Positions 8,087 to 38,918 of a stretch of DNA of 40,400 bases are shown piece by piece (the stretch's first letter is position 1; every line of letters starts with the position of its first letter). The notes below the pieces were generated by a model that searched no databases, was not told the DNA's origin, and saw only the letters and a program-made list of their open reading frames with translations. The stretch spans positions 1-40,400 of IMG/VR virus record IMGVR_UViG_3300020213_000052. One strand, 5' to 3'. Made by a program: the position numbers and the translations under genes. The stretch comes from a virus.

Positions 8087-8161
8087 ACATTCCACAATGA
8101 CTGTCGGCTTCTTCGACCATGGTGGCGTCAGTCCCCAGCCAATGAACGTGAGCCAAGTCAT
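8063..8161 (-). CDS. Possible 32-residue peptide after the integrase
   Basis: An ATG overlaps the integrase stop by 4 bases (ATGA), the same coupling seen at most junctions of this operon. The frame gives 32 residues with a Trp-rich N-terminal half (MTWLTFIGWG) and a basic end. It runs into the terminator hairpin of the opposite strand. The coupling favours a real gene; its size and overlap with the terminator argue against. Confidence 0.35.
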   Translation of the reverse strand: MTWLTFIGWGLTPPWSKKPTVIVECKKPSQGR

Positions 8162-9027
8162 TGCCTCCCTCCCAGCATTTCGCCCATTACCCTCGCGATG
8201 GCGCGAGCGGCATTTATCTTTGCAACAGGCATGAGTTTGGCGTACCTGTCCGTAGTTTGTGCCGATCGGTGATTGAGTAACTGGCCAATCTGGCCCTTCT
8301 CGACGCCGTGAGAGAGGCCCACCGTTGCAAACGTCCGCCGCAAGTCGCGGACCCACAGAGTGGGGCACCCCGCTTCCCGCGTTAAACGTTCCCAGAAGCG
8401 CCGATACTGCACCTTGCCTAGTAAGAGACCATCCTCGCGAAGTGGGAGCGCCTGGAGCGTTTTAAGCGCCAATGGCGGCACGATAACGGTCTCCTCCTCC
8501 CCCGTAGTCTCAGTAGACTTCCCCGCGAATCGGAGAATCCCGATGTCACCGTGAACCACAAGCTCGTCACGCCTCACTCTCTCGATGCTGATAGGGCGAG
8601 CTCCCGTTAGTGCGAGAGTCTGGCAGAACGCCACCTCACGCGGGTACCGGACTCGGTGACGCTCAAACGCCTTCCCCAAGGCGGTTAACTCCTCTGCCGT
8701 AGCGTAGCGGTTCCGCTGTTTCTCCCGGTTACTCTTCACCAAGCGGCATGGATTCACGCACGTAAGGAGCGCCTCCTCGTGACCGAACGTGTATATCCTA
8801 CCGAGGACTTCGAGGCACCTATTGGCCGTCGTGGGCGTAAGCGCTAGTGAGCGGTGCCACGCCTTCACGAACTGCGGACCCACCTCTATAACTTCCATCT
8901 CCGCGAAAGTGGGCGCGATGTGGCGCTTCCAATACCGTTCCACCTCCGCTTTCCATCCCGAGTCCACGTACCGCGTTTGCGACCAATGCTCGTCGATACA
9001 CTTTTGGTAAAGATCTTTAATTCTCAC
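8158..9027 (-). CDS. int: Tyrosine recombinase / phage integrase
   Basis: A 289-residue site-specific recombinase that would insert the phage into, and help excise it from, the host chromosome. Residues 1-100 form the SAM-like core-binding domain, and 110-289 the catalytic domain. The catalytic residues visible are R144 (TGARPISI), K170, R230 in RDLRRTFAT, H253 in LLNHRS and the nucleophile Y262 (TTDRYA). The first position of the H-x-x-R box is Arg (R227) instead of His, a substitution seen in some phage integrases. The start is GTG, inside the end of the small gene upstream. It is the last substantial gene of the leftward operon; attP is probably nearby but I cannot identify it. Confidence 0.9.
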   Translation of the reverse strand: MRIKDLYQKCIDEHWSQTRYVDSGWKAEVERYWKRHIAPTFAEMEVIEVGPQFVKAWHRSLALTPTTANRCLEVLGRIYTFGHEEALLTCVNPCRLVKSNREKQRNRYATAEELTALGKAFERHRVRYPREVAFCQTLALTGARPISIERVRRDELVVHGDIGILRFAGKSTETTGEEETVIVPPLALKTLQALPLREDGLLLGKVQYRRFWERLTREAGCPTLWVRDLRRTFATVGLSHGVEKGQIGQLLNHRSAQTTDRYAKLMPVAKINAARAIARVMGEMLGGRQ

Positions 9028-9333: not shown

Positions 9334-9861
9334 TTTTTCTCCTTTACGATTTGTTTCATAGCGTCTTGAAGCCCGTGCCAAAAGTCGCTTTCTTGCCTCA
9401 ATGCCAAACTCAAGTATGAGATTGCCTATACGATTTGTTTCATAGCGTCTTGAAGCCCGTGCCAAAAGTCGCTTTCTTGCCTCAATGCCAAACTCAAGTA
9501 TGAGATTGCCTAAGTGCATTTCAGCTAAGTCGAGTAACTCGTATACAACGCTCCAGTGCGGGAAGCTTTTCGGCGCCAACTCTTCCGAGTACGTTTCCTC
9601 GAAGCCGTGTAGGATCACACCTCCGTGGTAGTACGGACCCTCATCGGAACTAATGAACCACGCAAATGAATGCGCCACCCAGTCCGGTGTAACTCTCACC
9701 ACCACCCCCTTCTTGCCTCGGTATCGAACGGCGTTACGTTTTATGCGGTTAATTGTGCGCATACAGTGGAGAAGGCTGCTTTTTGGCTCACCCCCAAGAG
9801 ATGCGGCAAAAGCCCGTGCTTTGCGTGCGTGATCAACGTTTACGATTTCTATCTTGGTCAT
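9097..9861 (-). CDS. Apparent fusion ORF: unknown protein with a 28-residue tandem duplication plus the zinc-site protein
   Basis: As sequenced, one 254-residue frame covers two probable genes. The upstream part (9861 down to about 9334, 176 residues) has no recognised family. It begins MTKIEIVNVDHARK, contains HGGVILHGFEETY-like segments, and ends with a basic helix in which 28 residues are repeated exactly (GNLILEFGIEARKRLLARAS and the following eight). Then KGEKM reads across a ribosome site into the downstream zinc-site protein. Elsewhere in this operon proteins end in (K)GEK-stop where the Shine-Dalgarno sequence is translated, so a lost stop is the likely cause. The ATG at 9861 overlaps the upstream stop by 4 bases. 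Confidence 0.55.
   Translation of the reverse strand: MTKIEIVNVDHARKARAFAASLGGEPKSSLLHCMRTINRIKRNAVRYRGKKGVVVRVTPDWVAHSFAWFISSDEGPYYHGGVILHGFEETYSEELAPKSFPHWSVVYELLDLAEMHLGNLILEFGIEARKRLLARASRRYETNRIGNLILEFGIEARKRLLARASRRYETNRKGEKMRDKTIYTRENPPSESVALQRIFANKCPFCRDTVQCDGPAEIENGFAYQEVYCERGDDSVGPECGHWLEVYKLVRWEE
9345..9512. repeat. 84-bp perfect tandem duplication, in frame
   Basis: Two identical 84-bp copies, 9345-9428 and 9429-9512, lie head to tail inside the gene above. They add exactly 28 codons. The absence of any mismatch means a recent duplication or an assembly artefact. Confidence 0.95.
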
Positions 9862-16140: not shown

Positions 16141-16908
16141 TCAACTGAATGGGTCATCCTCTTCTTCCGAAACCACATCGAAAGAATCTATCGCCTTGGT
16201 AAGCCGCTCCGCTGTTTTAGCCGGGCAGAACGTATGCGCCGGGCAAAAAAAGCAATATCGGCCGGGGACGAGCGGGGCATTCGCGGCTTCCGTAGCTTCG
16301 GCCCGCTCTACCAAAAAACCTTCGAAGTCTAATAGCTGCAACGAGCTCACACGCCACCGCCGCACCGGATTCTTGCCGGGGCCGTTCGGCTGCACGACGA
16401 CGATCTCTACGTGCAACGCCGGGAACTTCAGCGTTACCAGGGCGCCGAGCGCGTAGTACTGCAACTGCCAATTGTCCTCAACTTCGACAGCGGACTTGCC
16501 ATTTTTATAATCGTAGACGTAGAGGACTCTTGTGGTCGGATTCCACATGACCGTATCGGCGCGGCCATAGCAGCCGGGATAAACCGCGTTCAAGTCAAAG
16601 TTTTGCTCAATGAATATCTCAGTGTCGTCCGCCTTCAGCGGCCACTTGGAGCCATACCGATCTTCAAAAATGGTGGTCGTGTACAGCGTGATCGCGTCCT
16701 GAACCTTCTGATCCAGCCGGTGGAAATTCTCCGCTGGCATTTCGCCGCGCTGATACATCTCGATGAGAGTGTGGACCCACGTACCCAGTTTGGCCGCATC
16801 GCTTTCAATGGACGGGACTCCACGACACAACTCCACTGATCCCGGACACGACGCCCAGCGGGACATGGAGCTCGCCCCAAGCGCAGAATGTTTCGCTACA
16901 CCGCTCAC
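16141..16908 (-). CDS. PD-(D/E)XK nuclease, Cas4/RecB-like (DUF2800 type)
   Basis: A 255-residue exonuclease-like protein with the conserved order of this family: H46 in GTWVHTLIE, D118 in CYGRADTV, then D133-x-K135 in YDYKNGK. Cysteines C21, C219, C222 and C228 are placed as for an iron-sulfur cluster in Cas4/AddB relatives. It probably processes DNA ends in recombination or replication. The start is GTG overlapping the RyR gene stop by 4 bases (GTGA). The acidic end DDPFS resembles that of the SSB. Confidence 0.85.
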   Translation of the reverse strand: MSGVAKHSALGASSMSRWASCPGSVELCRGVPSIESDAAKLGTWVHTLIEMYQRGEMPAENFHRLDQKVQDAITLYTTTIFEDRYGSKWPLKADDTEIFIEQNFDLNAVYPGCYGRADTVMWNPTTRVLYVYDYKNGKSAVEVEDNWQLQYYALGALVTLKFPALHVEIVVVQPNGPGKNPVRRWRVSSLQLLDFEGFLVERAEATEAANAPLVPGRYCFFCPAHTFCPAKTAERLTKAIDSFDVVSEEEDDPFS

Positions 16909-19832: not shown

Positions 19833-20276
19833 TTAGTTTCGCGCTAACGGATTGCACTGCCGCGACACAGGGGTTTCCCCCACCATCACGCTTTTTCTAA
19901 ACCACACTTTCTCGTTCTCCCCGTCGATAACAGCAATGTCCACGCACCTCTCGCTATGCACTCTCGTCACTAAAGCGAGAAGGGGTAGTGTGCCCTTGGC
20001 CGGATCGTCGCCGTAGTAGTGCATCGGCGCGCCAACACCGTCCACCAACTCCCCCTTGACCGGGTGGGATGCGTCCCCCTCAAATGGATCAGACACCGCC
20101 GGTCCAGCGGTTTTAAGATGCTTCTCTTCGGCGGACGAGTAGTGCATCGGCGCGCCAACACCGTCCACCAACTCCCCCTTGACCGGGTGGGATGCGTCCC
20201 CCTCAAATGGATCAGACACCGCCGGTCCAGCGGTTTTAAGATGCTTCTCTTCGGCGGACGCTTTCGCTTTTGACAT
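19833..20276 (-). CDS. Unknown protein carrying a 41-residue perfect tandem duplication
   Basis: A 147-residue protein whose first 82 or so residues contain two identical 41-residue units (motifs EEKHLKTAGPAVSDPFEG and GVGAPMHY). After them comes a beta-rich domain (LPLLALVTRVHSERCVDIAV, then EKVWFRKSVMV). The ancestral form was probably 106 residues. The repeated part has the low-complexity look of a flexible linker. A ribosome site AGGAG precedes ATG. No family is recognised. Confidence 0.65.
   Translation of the reverse strand: MSKAKASAEEKHLKTAGPAVSDPFEGDASHPVKGELVDGVGAPMHYSSAEEKHLKTAGPAVSDPFEGDASHPVKGELVDGVGAPMHYYGDDPAKGTLPLLALVTRVHSERCVDIAVIDGENEKVWFRKSVMVGETPVSRQCNPLARN
20015..20260. 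repeat. 123-bp perfect tandem duplication, in frame
   Basis: Identical copies at 20015-20137 and 20138-20260 lie head to tail and add 41 codons. There is no mismatch between copies, so the event is very recent or an assembly product. Confidence 0.95.
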
Positions 20277-24992: not shown

Positions 24993-25151
24993 TTAGACCC
25001 TATAGACGCTCCCGATGTGATGGCCAAGGTAAATATCTAAAATGGCGCCGGAAATCGAATTTAGCCAATATTTGGCGTCATTTTCAGTTCCCGGCGGCGG
25101 CGCTGACGGGCTCTCGCCGCCGCAGATTGTTGCAAGAAGTATTTGCAGCAT
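24993..25151 (-). CDS. Possible 52-residue peptide at the head of the leftward operon
   Basis: A frame from ATG 25151 gives 52 residues with a hydrophobic start (MLQILLATICGG), a Pro-rich turn and a mixed end (YWLNSISGAILDIYLGHHIG). It ends 28 bases before the next start. No ribosome site is properly spaced (AAGGAGG is 22 bases upstream), so this is doubtful. Confidence 0.3.
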   Translation of the reverse strand: MLQILLATICGGESPSAPPPGTENDAKYWLNSISGAILDIYLGHHIGSVYRV

Positions 25152-25205
25152 ATCGTGCCGCCGCGCCTTCGGCCTCCTTCTATTTAACTAATACTCTATT
25201 TACTT

Positions 25206-25273
25206 AAGACAAATAAGACAAATAAGACAGAAGTAGTAATAACAACTAGTTAGGCTGTCCTGTTTCTGTCCTG
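25206..25273. repeat. Short direct repeats in the AT-rich segment
   Basis: aagacaaat occurs at 25206 and 25215 with a third, altered copy at 25224 (9-bp period). ctgtcctg occurs at 25255 and 25266 (11-bp period, near one DNA turn). The spacing suits protein binding on one face of the helix. Confidence 0.7.
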
Positions 25274-25460
25274 CTTGAATTAATTACACGCTTACACCGG
25301 ACGGATGCGGGCTGTTTAAGGCGCTGCGTCACCCTTGGCGAAATCCTATTGCAAACAAAGCACTGCAAAGAAAATTATGTTGGCGCTTCAAGCGCCCCTC
25401 TATGGCGGGGGAGGGGGTTTTGCAACAGGCCGGGAGCTATAAGTTTGCGCCGCTGTTTTT

Positions 25461-25596
25461 GCCGATTACGCCAAATCGTTTTTTCTTTTCAAATCATCTA
25501 GTCCTCGGCCCCTTCGCCAAACCCCATGGCCGATTACGCCAAATCGTTTTTTCTTTTCAAATCATCTAGTCCTCGGCCCCTTCGCCAAACCCCATG
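25461..25596. repeat. 68-bp perfect tandem duplication, non-coding
   Basis: Copies 25461-25528 and 25529-25596 are identical, and six bases of a third copy follow. Each contains a run of six T followed by cttttc. Confidence 0.95.
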
Positions 25597-25672
25597 GCCG
25601 ATAGAGCCCATTGAATGGCAGTAATGGCGAGTAGGGGCGCTGGGAGCTCGCCGGGCTTTGTACAGCAATGAG

Positions 25673-25747
25673 ATGGTCCATATGGTCCATATGGTCCGGA
25701 ATAGGCTGGAATAGGCTGGAATAGGCGGGAATAGGCTGGAATAGGCG
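25673..25747. repeat. Iteron-like tandem arrays (9-bp and 10-bp units)
   Basis: atggtccat is repeated nearly three times (25673-25697), followed at once by five copies of ggaataggc(t/g) (25698-25747). Arrays of short units beside an AT-rich stretch (25760-25783) are typical of replication origins that bind an initiator. Confidence 0.85.
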
Positions 25748-25785
25748 ACGTCCTAGACGAATTCCTTATAAGCAATTTTTTTATC

Positions 25786-25840
25786 AGCGGGCATAAAAAC
25801 CCGCTGCACGACAGCTCGTCGAGTGTATAGAAAATATACA
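25786..25840. promoter_or_regulatory. Hairpin and operator-like palindrome beside the iterons
   Basis: agcggg/cccgct (25786-25791 and 25800-25805) and tgtata-gaaaa-tataca (25824-25840). The second has the form of a repressor operator. Neither has a T-run in the sense needed for termination. Confidence 0.5.
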
Positions 25841-26044
25841 GCGGGTTCAATTGAACGGGAGCGGGAGTGTATTCAGCGAGTGTGCGGCTAAAAGATCGAC
25901 GGAAAATTAAAATCACGTCCTAGACTAGGGGGTTTTAGGTTCAATTTTTAATTGCAATAAATTTGGCATACCGGATGCAGTAACTAAAAATCAGAGCGAA
26001 CGACAACGTGTCGGACGCCAAACTAAAAAACTAAGGAAAATAAC

Positions 26045-26467: not shown

Positions 26468-26515
26468 ATTGAGAATACGCGGCTATAAACTAGCGTAGTG
26501 CCGCGTATTCTCAAT
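26468..26515. promoter_or_regulatory. 16-bp perfect inverted repeat between two early genes
   Basis: attgagaatacgcggc (26468-26483) and gccgcgtattctcaat (26500-26515) are perfect complements around a 16-base loop containing tataaact. No T-run follows, so it is not a standard terminator. As RNA it is a very stable hairpin; as DNA it could be a large operator around a -10-like box. Confidence 0.85.
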
Positions 26516-26538
26516 CGTCCCTCACACAAGAGGACATC

Positions 26539-26802: not shown

Positions 26803-26838
26803 ATTGAGGGAATTCACCCTCGTATTCCAGGAGAATTC

Positions 26839-26919
26839 ATGCGTTCAATGGTATTTTTTATGGGCGTTGATGCCGCGTACCACCACGGCGAACACTGCAT
26901 AGATAACCGCACGTTTTAG
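26839..26919 (+). CDS. Possible 26-residue peptide between two terminators
   Basis: An ATG with AGGAG 6 bases upstream opens a 26-codon frame (MRSMVFFMGVDAAYHHGEHC and six more). On the opposite strand a 30-codon frame ending at 26845 (inner part INWLKRAVIYAVFAVVVRG) overlaps it. Only one can be real, and neither is sure. The better ribosome site favours the plus strand. Confidence 0.3.
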   Translation: MRSMVFFMGVDAAYHHGEHCIDNRTF

Positions 26920-26946
26920 CCAGTTAATGCCCCGCATAATCCCCCG

Positions 26947-26984
26947 AACCCCAATACCACCACGGTTATTGGGGTTTTTTTTAT
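26947..26984 (+). terminator. Second rho-independent terminator upstream of the packaging leader
   Basis: aaccccaata (26947-26956) pairs perfectly with tattggggtt (26967-26976), and eight T run from 26975. Together with the one at 26.8 kb it insulates the packaging operon from the early genes. Confidence 0.9.
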
Positions 26985-27052
26985 CTGCATTTTCGCTATA
27001 TATAGTGGGTTTTTTACGGTGCGAATTCGTTCGCGTATGCACGGGACGTGCG

Positions 27053-27137
27053 CATTCTCTCGGAATACGGCGCTGATTGGTGCGTACCAATTTGACAATT
27101 CGTCCCTGGAGACTTTGTATTCTCCCGGAATACGGCT
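27053..27137. repeat. 18-bp direct repeat around the packaging promoter
   Basis: attctctcggaatacggc (from 27053) and attctcccggaatacggc (from 27119) differ by one base and are 66 bp apart. Each contains an attc/gaat mini-palindrome. One copy lies upstream of the -35 box, the other overlaps the -10 box and presumed start site. Confidence 0.8.
27092..27121 (+). promoter_or_regulatory. Sigma70-like promoter for the packaging / late genes
   Basis: A consensus TTGACA (27092-27097) is followed after 18 bases by TGTATT (27116-27121). An attggt/accaat palindrome abuts the -35 box. Transcription would begin near 27128, giving a leader of about 315 bases or more. Confidence 0.65.
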
Positions 27138-27330
27138 ACAGGTTTTTAACCTGTAGTCGGTTTTCAGGCTCACGGTGCGCCCTGGACGCCGTGGCGGCAC
27201 TGAAAACCGGAAAACTGCCCGCCTGCCCGCCGCTTGACCACGGTTTTTAGAGGCTCCAAGGCGTCTAGGACGCGCCGTGGCATCCCCGACTAGGTCAGCG
27301 GGCGAACGGCCCGGGGAATTCAGCCGTGGG
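27136..27330 (+). ncRNA. Structured leader or small RNA upstream of the terminase genes
   Basis: Four consecutive stem-loops follow the promoter: ctacaggtt/aacctgtag (27136-27156), cggttttcag/ctgaaaaccg with a nested cacgg/ccgtg (27158-27209), a branched one with ccacgg/ccgtgg and gcgtc/gacgc (27230-27301), and acggc/gccgt (27306-27326). No good coding frame is seen across it. It could be a cis-acting leader, a free RNA, or a DNA packaging site. Confidence 0.5.
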
Positions 27331-27442
27331 CTGTTTAAATTGAATTTCGTGCGACGAAATCGAAATTGAATTTTCGAACCGCCCTTCACCGACGCTCATC
27401 GGCACCTATTGTTGTCTAGGTACCCTAGTCAATCTATGCCTA

Positions 27443-27856
27443 TTGGATGACATCAAGGGCATCTCCGGGGTACCTTCACTAAAGACCGGGGGTGGGGATG
27501 CCGTACCCCCGAAACTCGAAGCCAATCGTACCCTTTCTGGGTATGGCGTAGGCACTGTTTCGCCCCCTTCGAAATTTTTGCAACACATGAAACCTTCTAT
27601 CAGAGAATGCAGACACCTCAATCGTCCGGTGGAAGTAATCACCATTCCCGATAGGCTTGACCATTTCGAGGATCTGACTCCAGACTATACGGCTGAAGAT
27701 CTAGAAATGTTCAGAAGCACCACGGCTGAAGATCTAGAAATGTTCAGAAGCACCACGGCTGAAGATCTAGAAATGTTCAGAAGCACCACGGCTGAAGAGC
27801 TAGAAATGTTCAGAAGCACCACGGCTGAAGAGCTAGAAGCTCATAAAAATTTTTAA
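27443..27856 (+). CDS. Unknown protein with an 11-residue tandem repeat
   Basis: The frame opens at TTG 27443 (137 residues) or at ATG 27587 (90 residues). The later start has more protein-like sequence (PVEVITIPDRLDHFEDL) but no Shine-Dalgarno site. The C-terminal half is five copies of TAE(D/E)LEMFRST, the last one partial, forming an acidic amphipathic helix. It is the first gene after the packaging promoter and lies directly before terS. Function unknown. Confidence 0.5.
   Translation: MDDIKGISGVPSLKTGGGDAVPPKLEANRTLSGYGVGTVSPPSKFLQHMKPSIRECRHLNRPVEVITIPDRLDHFEDLTPDYTAEDLEMFRSTTAEDLEMFRSTTAEDLEMFRSTTAEELEMFRSTTAEELEAHKNF
27689..27853. repeat. 33-bp tandem repeat array, five units, in frame
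   Basis: Units start at 27689, 27722, 27755, 27788 and 27821. The first four are identical except for one base in unit 4 (gatct/gagct); the fifth diverges after 17 bases. Confidence 0.95.
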
Positions 27857-27880
27857 CCTATACGGATTCTTTGCAACAAT

Positions 27881-28477
27881 ATGGATGCCCCCCGACCAAA
27901 AAGAACTTACCGAAGGTGGGCACCATTAAAAGTGAAGCCCGAGAAGGTGGTGCCACCACCGAGGGTCATTCCGCCGCTCAAGAGAGGGCAAAGGTCTCCG
28001 GGGCTTCTTGATCCACGTAGAGCAGCGTTCCTGATAGAGTTTGTGAAGCACGGTAATGGCAAGCGGGCCGCACTAGATGCGGGCTATTCGTCCCAAAGTA
28101 GTGGCACGTACGGGACGTCTTTGGCGAAAGATCCGAGATTGGCCGCAGCCGTCGAGGAAGTAAGGGAACGGGTTATGGCTAAAGCAGAATACACGTGTGA
28201 AGTGGCGATGAAAGAAGCGCAAGCGGCGCTGGATTTTGCGGAAGAGACCGGAAACGCTAATGCGTACGTTAAAGCCGTGGAGCTCCGTTCTAAGCTAATG
28301 GGGCTTCTCGTTGAGAAGATAGATTTACGCCAAGCCATTGGCTTTCAGATTCGTATTGGCGGATTGAAATCGTCGACTGCGCCACCGGTTGACGTGCAAA
28401 TGATTCCCTCGGACACTTCGGTAGCGGAGTCCGACGCTAAGGTAGCTGAAGCTATCGAGGATGATCCGTGGAGCTAA
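27881..28477 (+). CDS. terS: Terminase small subunit
   Basis: A 198-residue DNA-recognition subunit of the packaging motor. After a basic, Pro-rich N-terminus, the segment RRAAFLIEFVKHGNGKRAAL followed by DAGYSS is the helix-turn-helix start of the Terminase_2 family. The helical oligomerisation region (VAMKEAQAALDFAEETGNAN) and an acidic C-terminus ending DDPWS follow. It binds the packaging site and feeds DNA to the large subunit encoded next. No Shine-Dalgarno site is present; TTGCAACAAT directly precedes the ATG. Confidence 0.85.
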   Translation: MDAPRPKRTYRRWAPLKVKPEKVVPPPRVIPPLKRGQRSPGLLDPRRAAFLIEFVKHGNGKRAALDAGYSSQSSGTYGTSLAKDPRLAAAVEEVRERVMAKAEYTCEVAMKEAQAALDFAEETGNANAYVKAVELRSKLMGLLVEKIDLRQAIGFQIRIGGLKSSTAPPVDVQMIPSDTSVAESDAKVAEAIEDDPWS

Positions 28478-28502: not shown

Positions 28503-29990
28503 ATGAGCCAAGACGTTATCGTCGATTACATCCCTCAAGGCCCTACGCTCGTTAAGTTTCACGAATCGGAAATGTTTTTTAGGGGCATCATGGGGCCGTT
28601 CGGTTCCGCAAAGTCCACCGCTTGCGCGATGGAAATCCTCCGACGCTCGCAAGAGCAGCGCCCCTCAACGGTGACCGGCCAACGCCGCACGAGATGGGCT
28701 GTAGTGCGGAACACGTTCCCGGAATTAAAGACCACGACGCTCAAAACGTGGAACCAATGGTGTCCCGCGCAGTACGGGAAATTGACGATGGACTCCCCCA
28801 TTCGTCACTACGTGAATTCCACCGAGATCGAGATGGAAGTTTTGTTTATGGCGTTGGATAAACCCGACGACGTGAAGAAACTACTCTCACTCGAGCTGAC
28901 CGGGGCTTGGCTGAACGAGGCAAGAGAATGCCCTAAGGCGATTTTGGATGGCATCACTGGCCGCGTGGGGCGTTTTCCGCCAATGGTAGAGGGTGGCTGC
29001 ACATGGTCCGGCGTAATTGCCGACACCAACCCTCCCGACGATCAATCGTGGTGGTACAAGTTCTCCGAAGAAGCGACGCCCGAAGGATTTGAATTCTTCA
29101 AACAGCCGGGTGGTAGCAGCCCATTGGCCGAAAATTTGTGCAATCTCCCCGCTAACTACTACAAGCGGCTAGCCTCGGGCAAAGATTCTGACTGGGTGAA
29201 AGTCTACGTGGATGGGGAGTATGGCTACGTTTCCGAGGGCAAGGCCGTTTACCCCATGTTCCGTGACAGAACGCACGTACCCGAAGACGCAGTGGAACCG
29301 GTTCCGGGATTGCCGCTGCTCCTCGGCGCGGACTTTGGCCTCACACCATGCGTGGCCATTGGGCAAAAGCTCCCGAATGGGCGATGGCTTATCATCGACG
29401 AGTTTCTGACCGATAACTGTGGTGTCATCCGATTTGCTGAGCTCTTAACGAAGTATATTGCAGTGAATTACAAGGGGTTTACCGTAGACGGGGGATGGGG
29501 CGATCCGGCCGGGATGTTCAAATCTCAGAGTGACGAGAGAACATCCATCGAAATTATGAATACCCATACTCCGTGGAAGTGGCTACCGGCGCCGTCGAAC
29601 TCTCTGGCTATGCGCCTGGAATGCGTTAAAGGGGTCTTGAATCGCTTGGTGGACGGTGACCCAGGGCTGACAGTGTCTAAGAAGGCAAAAATCATCCGGA
29701 AGGGCTTTGCTGGCGCTTACGTGTATAAATTGATCTCGACAGGGGATGGGACACAGACACATGTGACTCCAGCAAAAAATATGTACTCTCATCCTCACGA
29801 TGCTGTGCAGTATCTTCTATTGGGCGGCGGCGAGCACAATGTGGTCATGGGGCGTAATCGGCAAAAACAGCGACAGACAACCCACAACGTCGAGGGCCTC
29901 GATTACAACCCGCTCAACGGTATTCAGGGGAGTAGTAAACGCAAGGAAAGCGAGCCCCCATATTTAAAGCGGATTCGCAAGGACTATTAA
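28503..29990 (+). CDS. terL: Terminase large subunit
   Basis: This 495-residue ATPase and nuclease drives DNA into the prohead and cuts it. Walker A is GPFGSAKST (31-39), and Walker B lies in LTGAWLNEARE (about 130-140). The C-terminal RNase H-like nuclease shows aspartates in GADFGLTP (about 275), WGDPAG (about 333) and HPHDAVQYL (about 430). The order matches podovirus terminases. It overlaps nothing and follows terS by 25 bases. Confidence 0.92.
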   Translation: MSQDVIVDYIPQGPTLVKFHESEMFFRGIMGPFGSAKSTACAMEILRRSQEQRPSTVTGQRRTRWAVVRNTFPELKTTTLKTWNQWCPAQYGKLTMDSPIRHYVNSTEIEMEVLFMALDKPDDVKKLLSLELTGAWLNEARECPKAILDGITGRVGRFPPMVEGGCTWSGVIADTNPPDDQSWWYKFSEEATPEGFEFFKQPGGSSPLAENLCNLPANYYKRLASGKDSDWVKVYVDGEYGYVSEGKAVYPMFRDRTHVPEDAVEPVPGLPLLLGADFGLTPCVAIGQKLPNGRWLIIDEFLTDNCGVIRFAELLTKYIAVNYKGFTVDGGWGDPAGMFKSQSDERTSIEIMNTHTPWKWLPAPSNSLAMRLECVKGVLNRLVDGDPGLTVSKKAKIIRKGFAGAYVYKLISTGDGTQTHVTPAKNMYSHPHDAVQYLLLGGGEHNVVMGRNRQKQRQTTHNVEGLDYNPLNGIQGSSKRKESEPPYLKRIRKDY

Positions 29991-38381: not shown

Positions 38382-38918
38382 GTGCCAGTACCATTGATCC
38401 CCCTAGCGCTGACATTAGGTTCCTTCTTTGGGAGCATGCTTGGGCTAAAAGGCAAGCTTGACGAGAACTCGGCCGCCGCGAAAGCCGCCCGGTATCAGGC
38501 GGATATTGCTGACGAGGACGCTGTACTGGCAGACAAGAACGCGCAAATCGTCTTGTCTCGAGCAACCGAAGAAGATCGGAAAGTTCGCGTTTTAGCGCGT
38601 CGGACGATGGGAAATATGCGGGCTACCATCGGCGCTTCGGGCCTTACCGACGAGGGAAACCCCGTCGATCTTTTGGAAGAAGCCGCGGCCACTTCCGAAG
38701 CCGATTCACTTGCAATACGCACGCAAGGCAAATACGAGTCAGACGCGTATTCCCTTCAAGGGCGAAGGAAGAGAGATTACGCGGCTCAGCTCCGCTCGGG
38801 AGCTTTAGACGTAGATAAATCGGCCCCGTTTGTGCTGGGTGCTGGAATCTTGGGCGCCGTGGGGGATGCGGCGCCCAAGATTCCGGGCGGTAATGGCCGC
38901 ATGAAGCGGGGTGGCTAA
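38382..38918 (+). CDS. Internal virion protein, gp14-like
   Basis: A 178-residue protein. A hydrophobic N-terminus (LIPLALTLGSFFGSMLGLKG) is followed by a long Ala-rich helix (AAAKAARYQADIADEDAVLA) and a GNMRATIGASGLTDEGNP motif that marks gp14-like internal proteins. These leave the head early in infection and form an outer-membrane channel. The start is GTG with AGAGGA upstream, and the stop shares a base with the next ATG. Confidence 0.78.
   Translation: MPVPLIPLALTLGSFFGSMLGLKGKLDENSAAAKAARYQADIADEDAVLADKNAQIVLSRATEEDRKVRVLARRTMGNMRATIGASGLTDEGNPVDLLEEAAATSEADSLAIRTQGKYESDAYSLQGRRKRDYAAQLRSGALDVDKSAPFVLGAGILGAVGDAAPKIPGGNGRMKRGG

Follow-up and report, generated by a model that had tools for sequence, protein, structure and literature searches.

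A conserved G-rich element ahead of terS in a metagenomic podovirus, a candidate packaging-initiation site next to a predicted structured leader

The window studied here, which is the entire IMG/VR virus record IMGVR_UViG_3300020213_000052 of 40,400 bp, contains a G-rich DNA element at positions 27481-27511, and this element, together with its flank, is probably the cos or pac site at which DNA packaging is initiated. This is the most economical reading of the element, and a cos site is more likely than a pac site. On this reading, 26985-27586 would act as a cis-acting control region where the packaging and late operon of the podovirus begins, and its functional core would be the element with about 75 bp of flank, serving as a packaging-initiation site 5' of terS. 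TerS would recognise the element and TerL would cut the DNA, upon which packaging of the concatemer would start. The original prediction, made for the neighbouring stretch 27000-27442, had put forward three ideas, namely a 5' regulatory leader, a free packaging RNA, and the pac/cos site itself. The third of these came closest and is the best supported, although the element that we describe lies about 40 bp beyond that stretch.

In this genome, most replication genes are encoded on the minus strand, and the plus strand carries the virion genes. The terminase genes are terS (27881-28477, plus strand; Terminase_2, phrog_51) and terL (28503-29990, plus strand; phrog_2), while the portal and the major capsid protein were assigned to phrog_332 and phrog_3437, respectively. 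MW202898, a circular, 38.7-kb environmental podovirus, is the closest genome found; its proteins are about 35-56% identical to those of the window over most of its length, but its terminase differs. A tyrosine-recombinase/integrase gene (8158-9027, minus strand; phrog_1), which has a counterpart annotated as xerD in MW202898, means that the phage may be temperate. An ORF beginning at 38918 apparently resumes, in a different frame, where the window begins (GESAAQYLKRTGQD, where MW202898 has GEGPDAYLKRVGKL). As this ORF seems to run across the window ends (40400/1), the record is best taken as a circle that is almost closed, with a short stretch missing. Tandem duplications, exact or nearly so, are present at 9341-9512 (84 bp), 20015-20260 (123 bp), and 25461-25602 (68 bp), and these may be real or else assembly artefacts; a comparable 122-bp duplication was seen at the start of L002, a second contig of the same phage. 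Besides, about 1 kb without a good ORF lies between divergent gene blocks (25030-26040) and carries short tandem repeats with 9- and 10-bp units, making it a candidate replication origin or promoter region.

The gap ahead of the packaging genes spans about 600 bases (26985-27586). It follows an intrinsic-terminator-like hairpin (26947-26984, plus strand) that closes the upstream small-gene group, and the perfect terminator claimed at this place was confirmed, with 10-bp arms at 26947-26956 and 26967-26976 and a T run that ends at 26984. No coding signal was detected in any frame of 26990-27350, and a 157-aa minus-strand ORF spanning the region (26916-27389) was scored as non-coding. The non-coding character assigned to 27000-27442 is therefore upheld, whereas its right boundary is not, as the gap extends past 27442 to 27586. 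A TTG start at 27443 was discarded, as it overlaps the DNA-conserved element and its reading frame differs in L031 (contig IMGVR_UViG_3300040759_000020, 38.9 kb), the closest full terminase relative, with a TerL 60% and a TerS 46% identical to those of the window. The first plausible start is the ATG at 27587, which opens a small ORF of 89 aa (27587-27856, plus strand) and marks the boundary of the gap. Within this ORF, four to five near-perfect 33-bp tandem repeats (27689-27838) give rise to the 11-residue repeat TAEDLEMFRST, and no family match was obtained for its protein. A similar TTTGCAACA stretch, which is not a clear Shine-Dalgarno sequence, precedes both the ATG of the small ORF (27570-27589) and that of terS (27863-27883).

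The sequence AAAGACCGGGG...TACCCCCG is common to 27481-27511 of the window and to position 16251 of MW202898. The alignment of the two elements is not significant alone (score 31; shuffles average 24 and reach up to 36), and the pattern was therefore tested on independent data. In the window, the pattern of the core, AAAGACCGGGGGTGGGGATGCCGTACCCCCG (27481-27511, plus strand), was found once and in none of 100 shuffles. Searching IMG/VR with AAAGACCGGGGN{6,20}TACCCCCG returned 12 stretches; the pattern permits lengths of 25 to 39 nt, yet 10 of the 12 measure 30-31 nt. With AAAGACCGGGGTGGGGTG, 26 stretches were returned. Among the 32 distinct viral loci found by pattern, 28 have terL on the same strand within 3.5 kb downstream, and the start of terS is usually 140-240 nt downstream of the site. 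The same pattern, AAAGACCGGGGN{6,20}TACCCCCG, gave 15 matches of scattered lengths in bacterial genome contigs, none of them near a related terL. When the search was instead started from terminase alignments and directed upstream, the site or a close variant was recovered in many of 80 loci. Altogether 59 non-redundant contexts carry the element ahead of terS/terL. Its left half is sharply conserved in these, with 1.5-2.0 bits at each of positions 1-11, followed by a G-rich part with 0.6-1.5 bits, and a TTTTTCGCGC/CTCGCACGCG-type block occurs about 70 nt further on. Alignments place the likely counterpart of this second block at 27554-27564 of the window (plus strand), about 70 nt after the core, where it is weaker than across the larger group. 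The flank of the core (27425-27597, plus strand) is likewise conserved and homologous to the same place in L031 (3271-3429; nhmmer E = 2.4e-5). The element occupies a single place per record, both in the window and in the 11 records with an exact match.

Some observations on where the site occurs speak against a packaging-initiation role. Most relatives of the window-type TerL at 51% identity or less are devoid of the site, and in MW202898 it is found after, not before, the Sf6-like terS. Nor did a search of alphaproteobacterial genomes with related TerL genes find the site next to them. In these genomes, related terL matches came in two pieces at several loci (L271, L272; G356, G241, G243, G181, G138, G137), about 870 bp apart in G241, and such pieces are possible introns, inteins, or broken genes. 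Partial matches to the site were noticed in Gordonia phage Kuwabara and Streptomyces phage Spernnie. Streptomyces Camvirus phage phiScoe54, with GACCGGGGTGGGGTGGGGGTAC near its record end, was rejected as a further case, as six relatives show a TTGAC...TACAAC promoter with a variable spacer. We found no phage paper describing the site sequence in the literature.

The reading frame through the element differs between the window and L031, showing conservation as DNA and not as a coding sequence. The right half of the element is a C run in 23 of the 59 contexts and consists of G only in 25, and base pairing is therefore not the conserved property. A four-run G-quadruplex as the conserved function was accordingly dropped in view of the 23 C-run right halves, and so was an RNA hairpin at the site, as G-only right halves are about as many as C-run ones. 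Conservation of the left half and of the placement ahead of terS, and not of pairing, favours a DNA element read by a protein.

Lambda-like cos sites are located just 5' of terS. The window resembles the cosQ-cosN-cosB arrangement of lambda and the 3' cos of HK97 in having a single intergenic G-rich element shortly before terS and a second conserved block further along, whereas the sequence of its element is apparently unrelated to theirs and occurs with more than one terminase type. A presumed packaging start near terS is also shared with the headful phages P22 and SPP1, and the TerL of most site-bearing phages has P22-like and PaP3-like phages among its isolate relatives. However, the pac sites of P22 and SPP1 lie within or at the terS coding sequence, in contrast to the intergenic element of the window. 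Several contigs (L180, L107, and L136) break within the site; L180, whose TerL is 62% identical to that of the window, starts with GTGGGGGTGGGGTGTACCCCC, and the 45.8-kb record of L107 was opened at the site with a 127-base overlap. As proof of genome ends, such breaks are ambiguous, given the 127-base overlaps, the differing offsets, and the G tracts, which break assemblies too. L058 was withdrawn as a contig-end case, as its site is actually internal, at 12.1 kb of the record. No isolate that bears the site and has mapped genome ends was found, and the genome-end type of the PaP3 group is disputed (PMC8540360).

Upstream of the element, 27106-27430 is predicted to form an elaborate fold, in agreement with the dense stem-loops noted originally. 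The minimum free energy (MFE) of 27100-27420 on the plus strand is -142.7 kcal/mol (z = -6.49), which no shuffle equals, and 27119-27300 has a z of -6.3; across analyses, the fold reaches z = -6.5 to -6.9. On the plus strand, 27126-27325 is the most structured 200-nt segment of the whole record, and the two best segments of a 320-nt scan overlap it. Three domains are predicted, all on the plus strand: a three-way junction (27106-27167; mean pair probability 0.84-0.96 in the MFE structure) composed of a 9-bp closing helix and hairpins at 27117-27133 and 27134-27158, a long imperfect hairpin (27168-27281) of 37 pairs including 4 G-U, formed by inverted repeat I1 with 79% complementarity, and a multibranch domain (27288-27430) closed by GACTAGG/CCTAGTC with a mean pair probability of 0.98 for the closing helix. 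The reverse strand also beats its own shuffles (z = -3.3). A raw difference of -13.9 kcal/mol between the strands is nothing unusual in this genome, being reached in 188 of 501 scan segments, and the asymmetry alone is therefore no proof of an RNA and was rejected as such.

The fold was not encountered in relatives. In L031, which keeps the site, the 400 nt upstream of it fold no better than shuffles (z = +0.3), the same interval of MW202898 has z = -1.5, and the mean over 50 other loci is z = -1.5. L060, L071, and L103 are strongly structured in this interval with sequences different from that of the window. No DNA homologue of the structured segment was detected in 50,697 phage records, 72,556 plasmids, and 16 full related viral records, an exact-pattern search of IMG/VR viral contigs with the 18-bp repeat described below gave no match, the three-way junction (27106-27167) was not found in relatives, and a TerS-based search of viral contigs retrieved no relative. 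Nor did the segment match Rfam 15 at or near a gathering score. The term 'compensating arms' implies covariation, for which no homologous sequences turned up in the collections searched. Absence of the arms from relatives, which had been named originally as a refuting outcome, was observed for the stem region in the relatives examined. As a predicted structure the leader holds up, and among the records examined it was found only in this phage. Several GCAATAATGTTGC-type palindromes, possible TerS-binding sites or replication iterons, stand just upstream of the conserved site in L060, L071, L144, and L150.

A promoter had been claimed at the left of the fold. The perfect -35 hexamer TTGACA is indeed there (27092-27097), while the promoter as a whole is weak. 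Its best -10 candidates are TGTATT at a spacing of 18 nt (4 of 6 positions) and TTGTAT at 17 nt (3 of 6), giving a sigma-70-like signal at 27092-27121 (plus strand), and a consensus promoter scan of 26900-27650 reported none. The 18-bp direct repeat said to bracket it is present at 27054-27071 and 27119-27136 with 17 of 18 positions identical, and when up to 3 mismatches are allowed, the genome holds one further match, at 26819, with all 3 of them (0.05 matches expected). From its sequence, the repeat is better read as two operator-like palindromes of the form GTATTC-N5-GAATAC around the weak promoter. The first, GCATTC-TCTCG-GAATAC, has 1 mismatch and lies within the first repeat (27052-27068), and the second, GTATTC-TCCCG-GAATAC, without mismatches, lies in the second repeat over the -10/start region (27117-27133). 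A third, GTATTC-CAGGA-GAATTC, with 1 mismatch, is located at 26822-26838; these three are the only copies genome-wide at up to 2 mismatches (0.97 expected by chance), and all fall inside about 310 bp. The positions of the first two, upstream of the -35 and over the -10/start, look like those of operators for a dimeric regulator, and the 18-bp repeats flanking the weak promoter may thus be bound by a dimeric DNA-binding protein. A perfect 15-bp inverted repeat, TTGAGAATACGCGGC...GCCGCGTATTCTCAA, was also observed between two small genes at 26471-26516 and has GAATAC in common with the operator-like palindromes.

Two accounts of 27106-27430 have to be weighed. The stems could be inverted repeats that act at the DNA level and have no RNA function, either as palindromes bound by proteins or as what is left of an inserted element, and we rate this at somewhat below an even chance. 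Both strands fold better than shuffles, the operator-like palindromes form part of the fold, and L060 and L071 bear different repeated palindromes at the same place, all consistent with repeats acting as DNA; however, the plus-strand fold is clearly the stronger one relative to shuffles (z = -6.5, and -3.3 for the other strand), and G-U pairs occur in the imperfect 39-nt arms. Alternatively, the segment could be a structured leader RNA with a function in the late operon, acting in cis in antitermination or translation control, an assignment that we can make only tentatively. The z of -6.5 to -6.9, the well determined helices, and the promoter-like -35 with palindromes upstream are what such a leader would predict, whereas the fold was found in no relative examined, L031 is unstructured, the promoter is weak, the strand asymmetry is ordinary, and Rfam offers no match. 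A 5' regulatory leader, the first of the three original ideas, may still apply in view of the strong predicted fold and the operator-like palindromes around the weak promoter. It would be comparable to late-operon leaders and antitermination RNAs such as the lambda late leader and HK022 put in being a structured 5' leader after a promoter and upstream of a long phage operon; this is a resemblance only. In the proposed arrangement, 27106-27430 would be a lineage-specific spacer or leader, which the late transcript would carry at its 5' end should transcription begin near 27128. A leader RNA at this place is compatible with a packaging site in the neighbouring element.

For the conserved element itself, the main competing explanation is a transcription control site, e.g., an activator box situated about 40 bp ahead of the -10 in a late promoter for terS, which we consider unlikely. 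A weak TAAT-like signal is seen about 50 nt after the element start in many contexts, e.g., GATAATCGACC, and the distance from the element to terS is fairly constant, as would be expected of such a box. Nevertheless, this signal is low, at 0.3-0.5 bits per position, and the window lacks it. In addition, the element occurs once per genome, whereas a phage late activator usually controls two or more promoters.

A free packaging RNA resembling the pRNA of phi29, the second original idea, is highly improbable. Its sole support is the position of a proposed structured RNA near the packaging genes, which it shares with pRNA. It is disfavoured on two grounds: an ordinary TerS (Terminase_2/phrog_51) and a conventional TerL are present, whereas phi29 packages its DNA without TerS, and the fold is absent from L031, the closest terminase relative with upstream sequence, whose TerL is 60% identical and whose upstream DNA is neither homologous nor structured (z = +0.3). 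A strong predicted fold beside terminase genes is by itself no evidence for a packaging RNA.

A portal of the window's family, 41-56% identical, is present in 17 of the 18 site-bearing records tested. Most site-bearing phages, by contrast, have a TerL type unlike that of the window, namely the one with P22-like and PaP3-like isolate relatives. The shared portal family and the differing TerL types therefore point to a shared virion lineage in which the site was retained and terminases were exchanged. We would go further only as a speculation with the balance against it, namely that one packaging signal stays with a podovirus portal lineage through the exchange of terminase families, so that its reader extends beyond TerL alone or several unrelated terminases use the site. 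If the site is a cos or pac site, survival of a packaging signal through terminase exchange becomes a testable question. A true cos or pac site would moreover mean that its signature marks the packaging start, and likely the left end of the genome, in dozens of podoviruses that are uncultured and represented by metagenomes alone, whose genome ends are otherwise hard to know.
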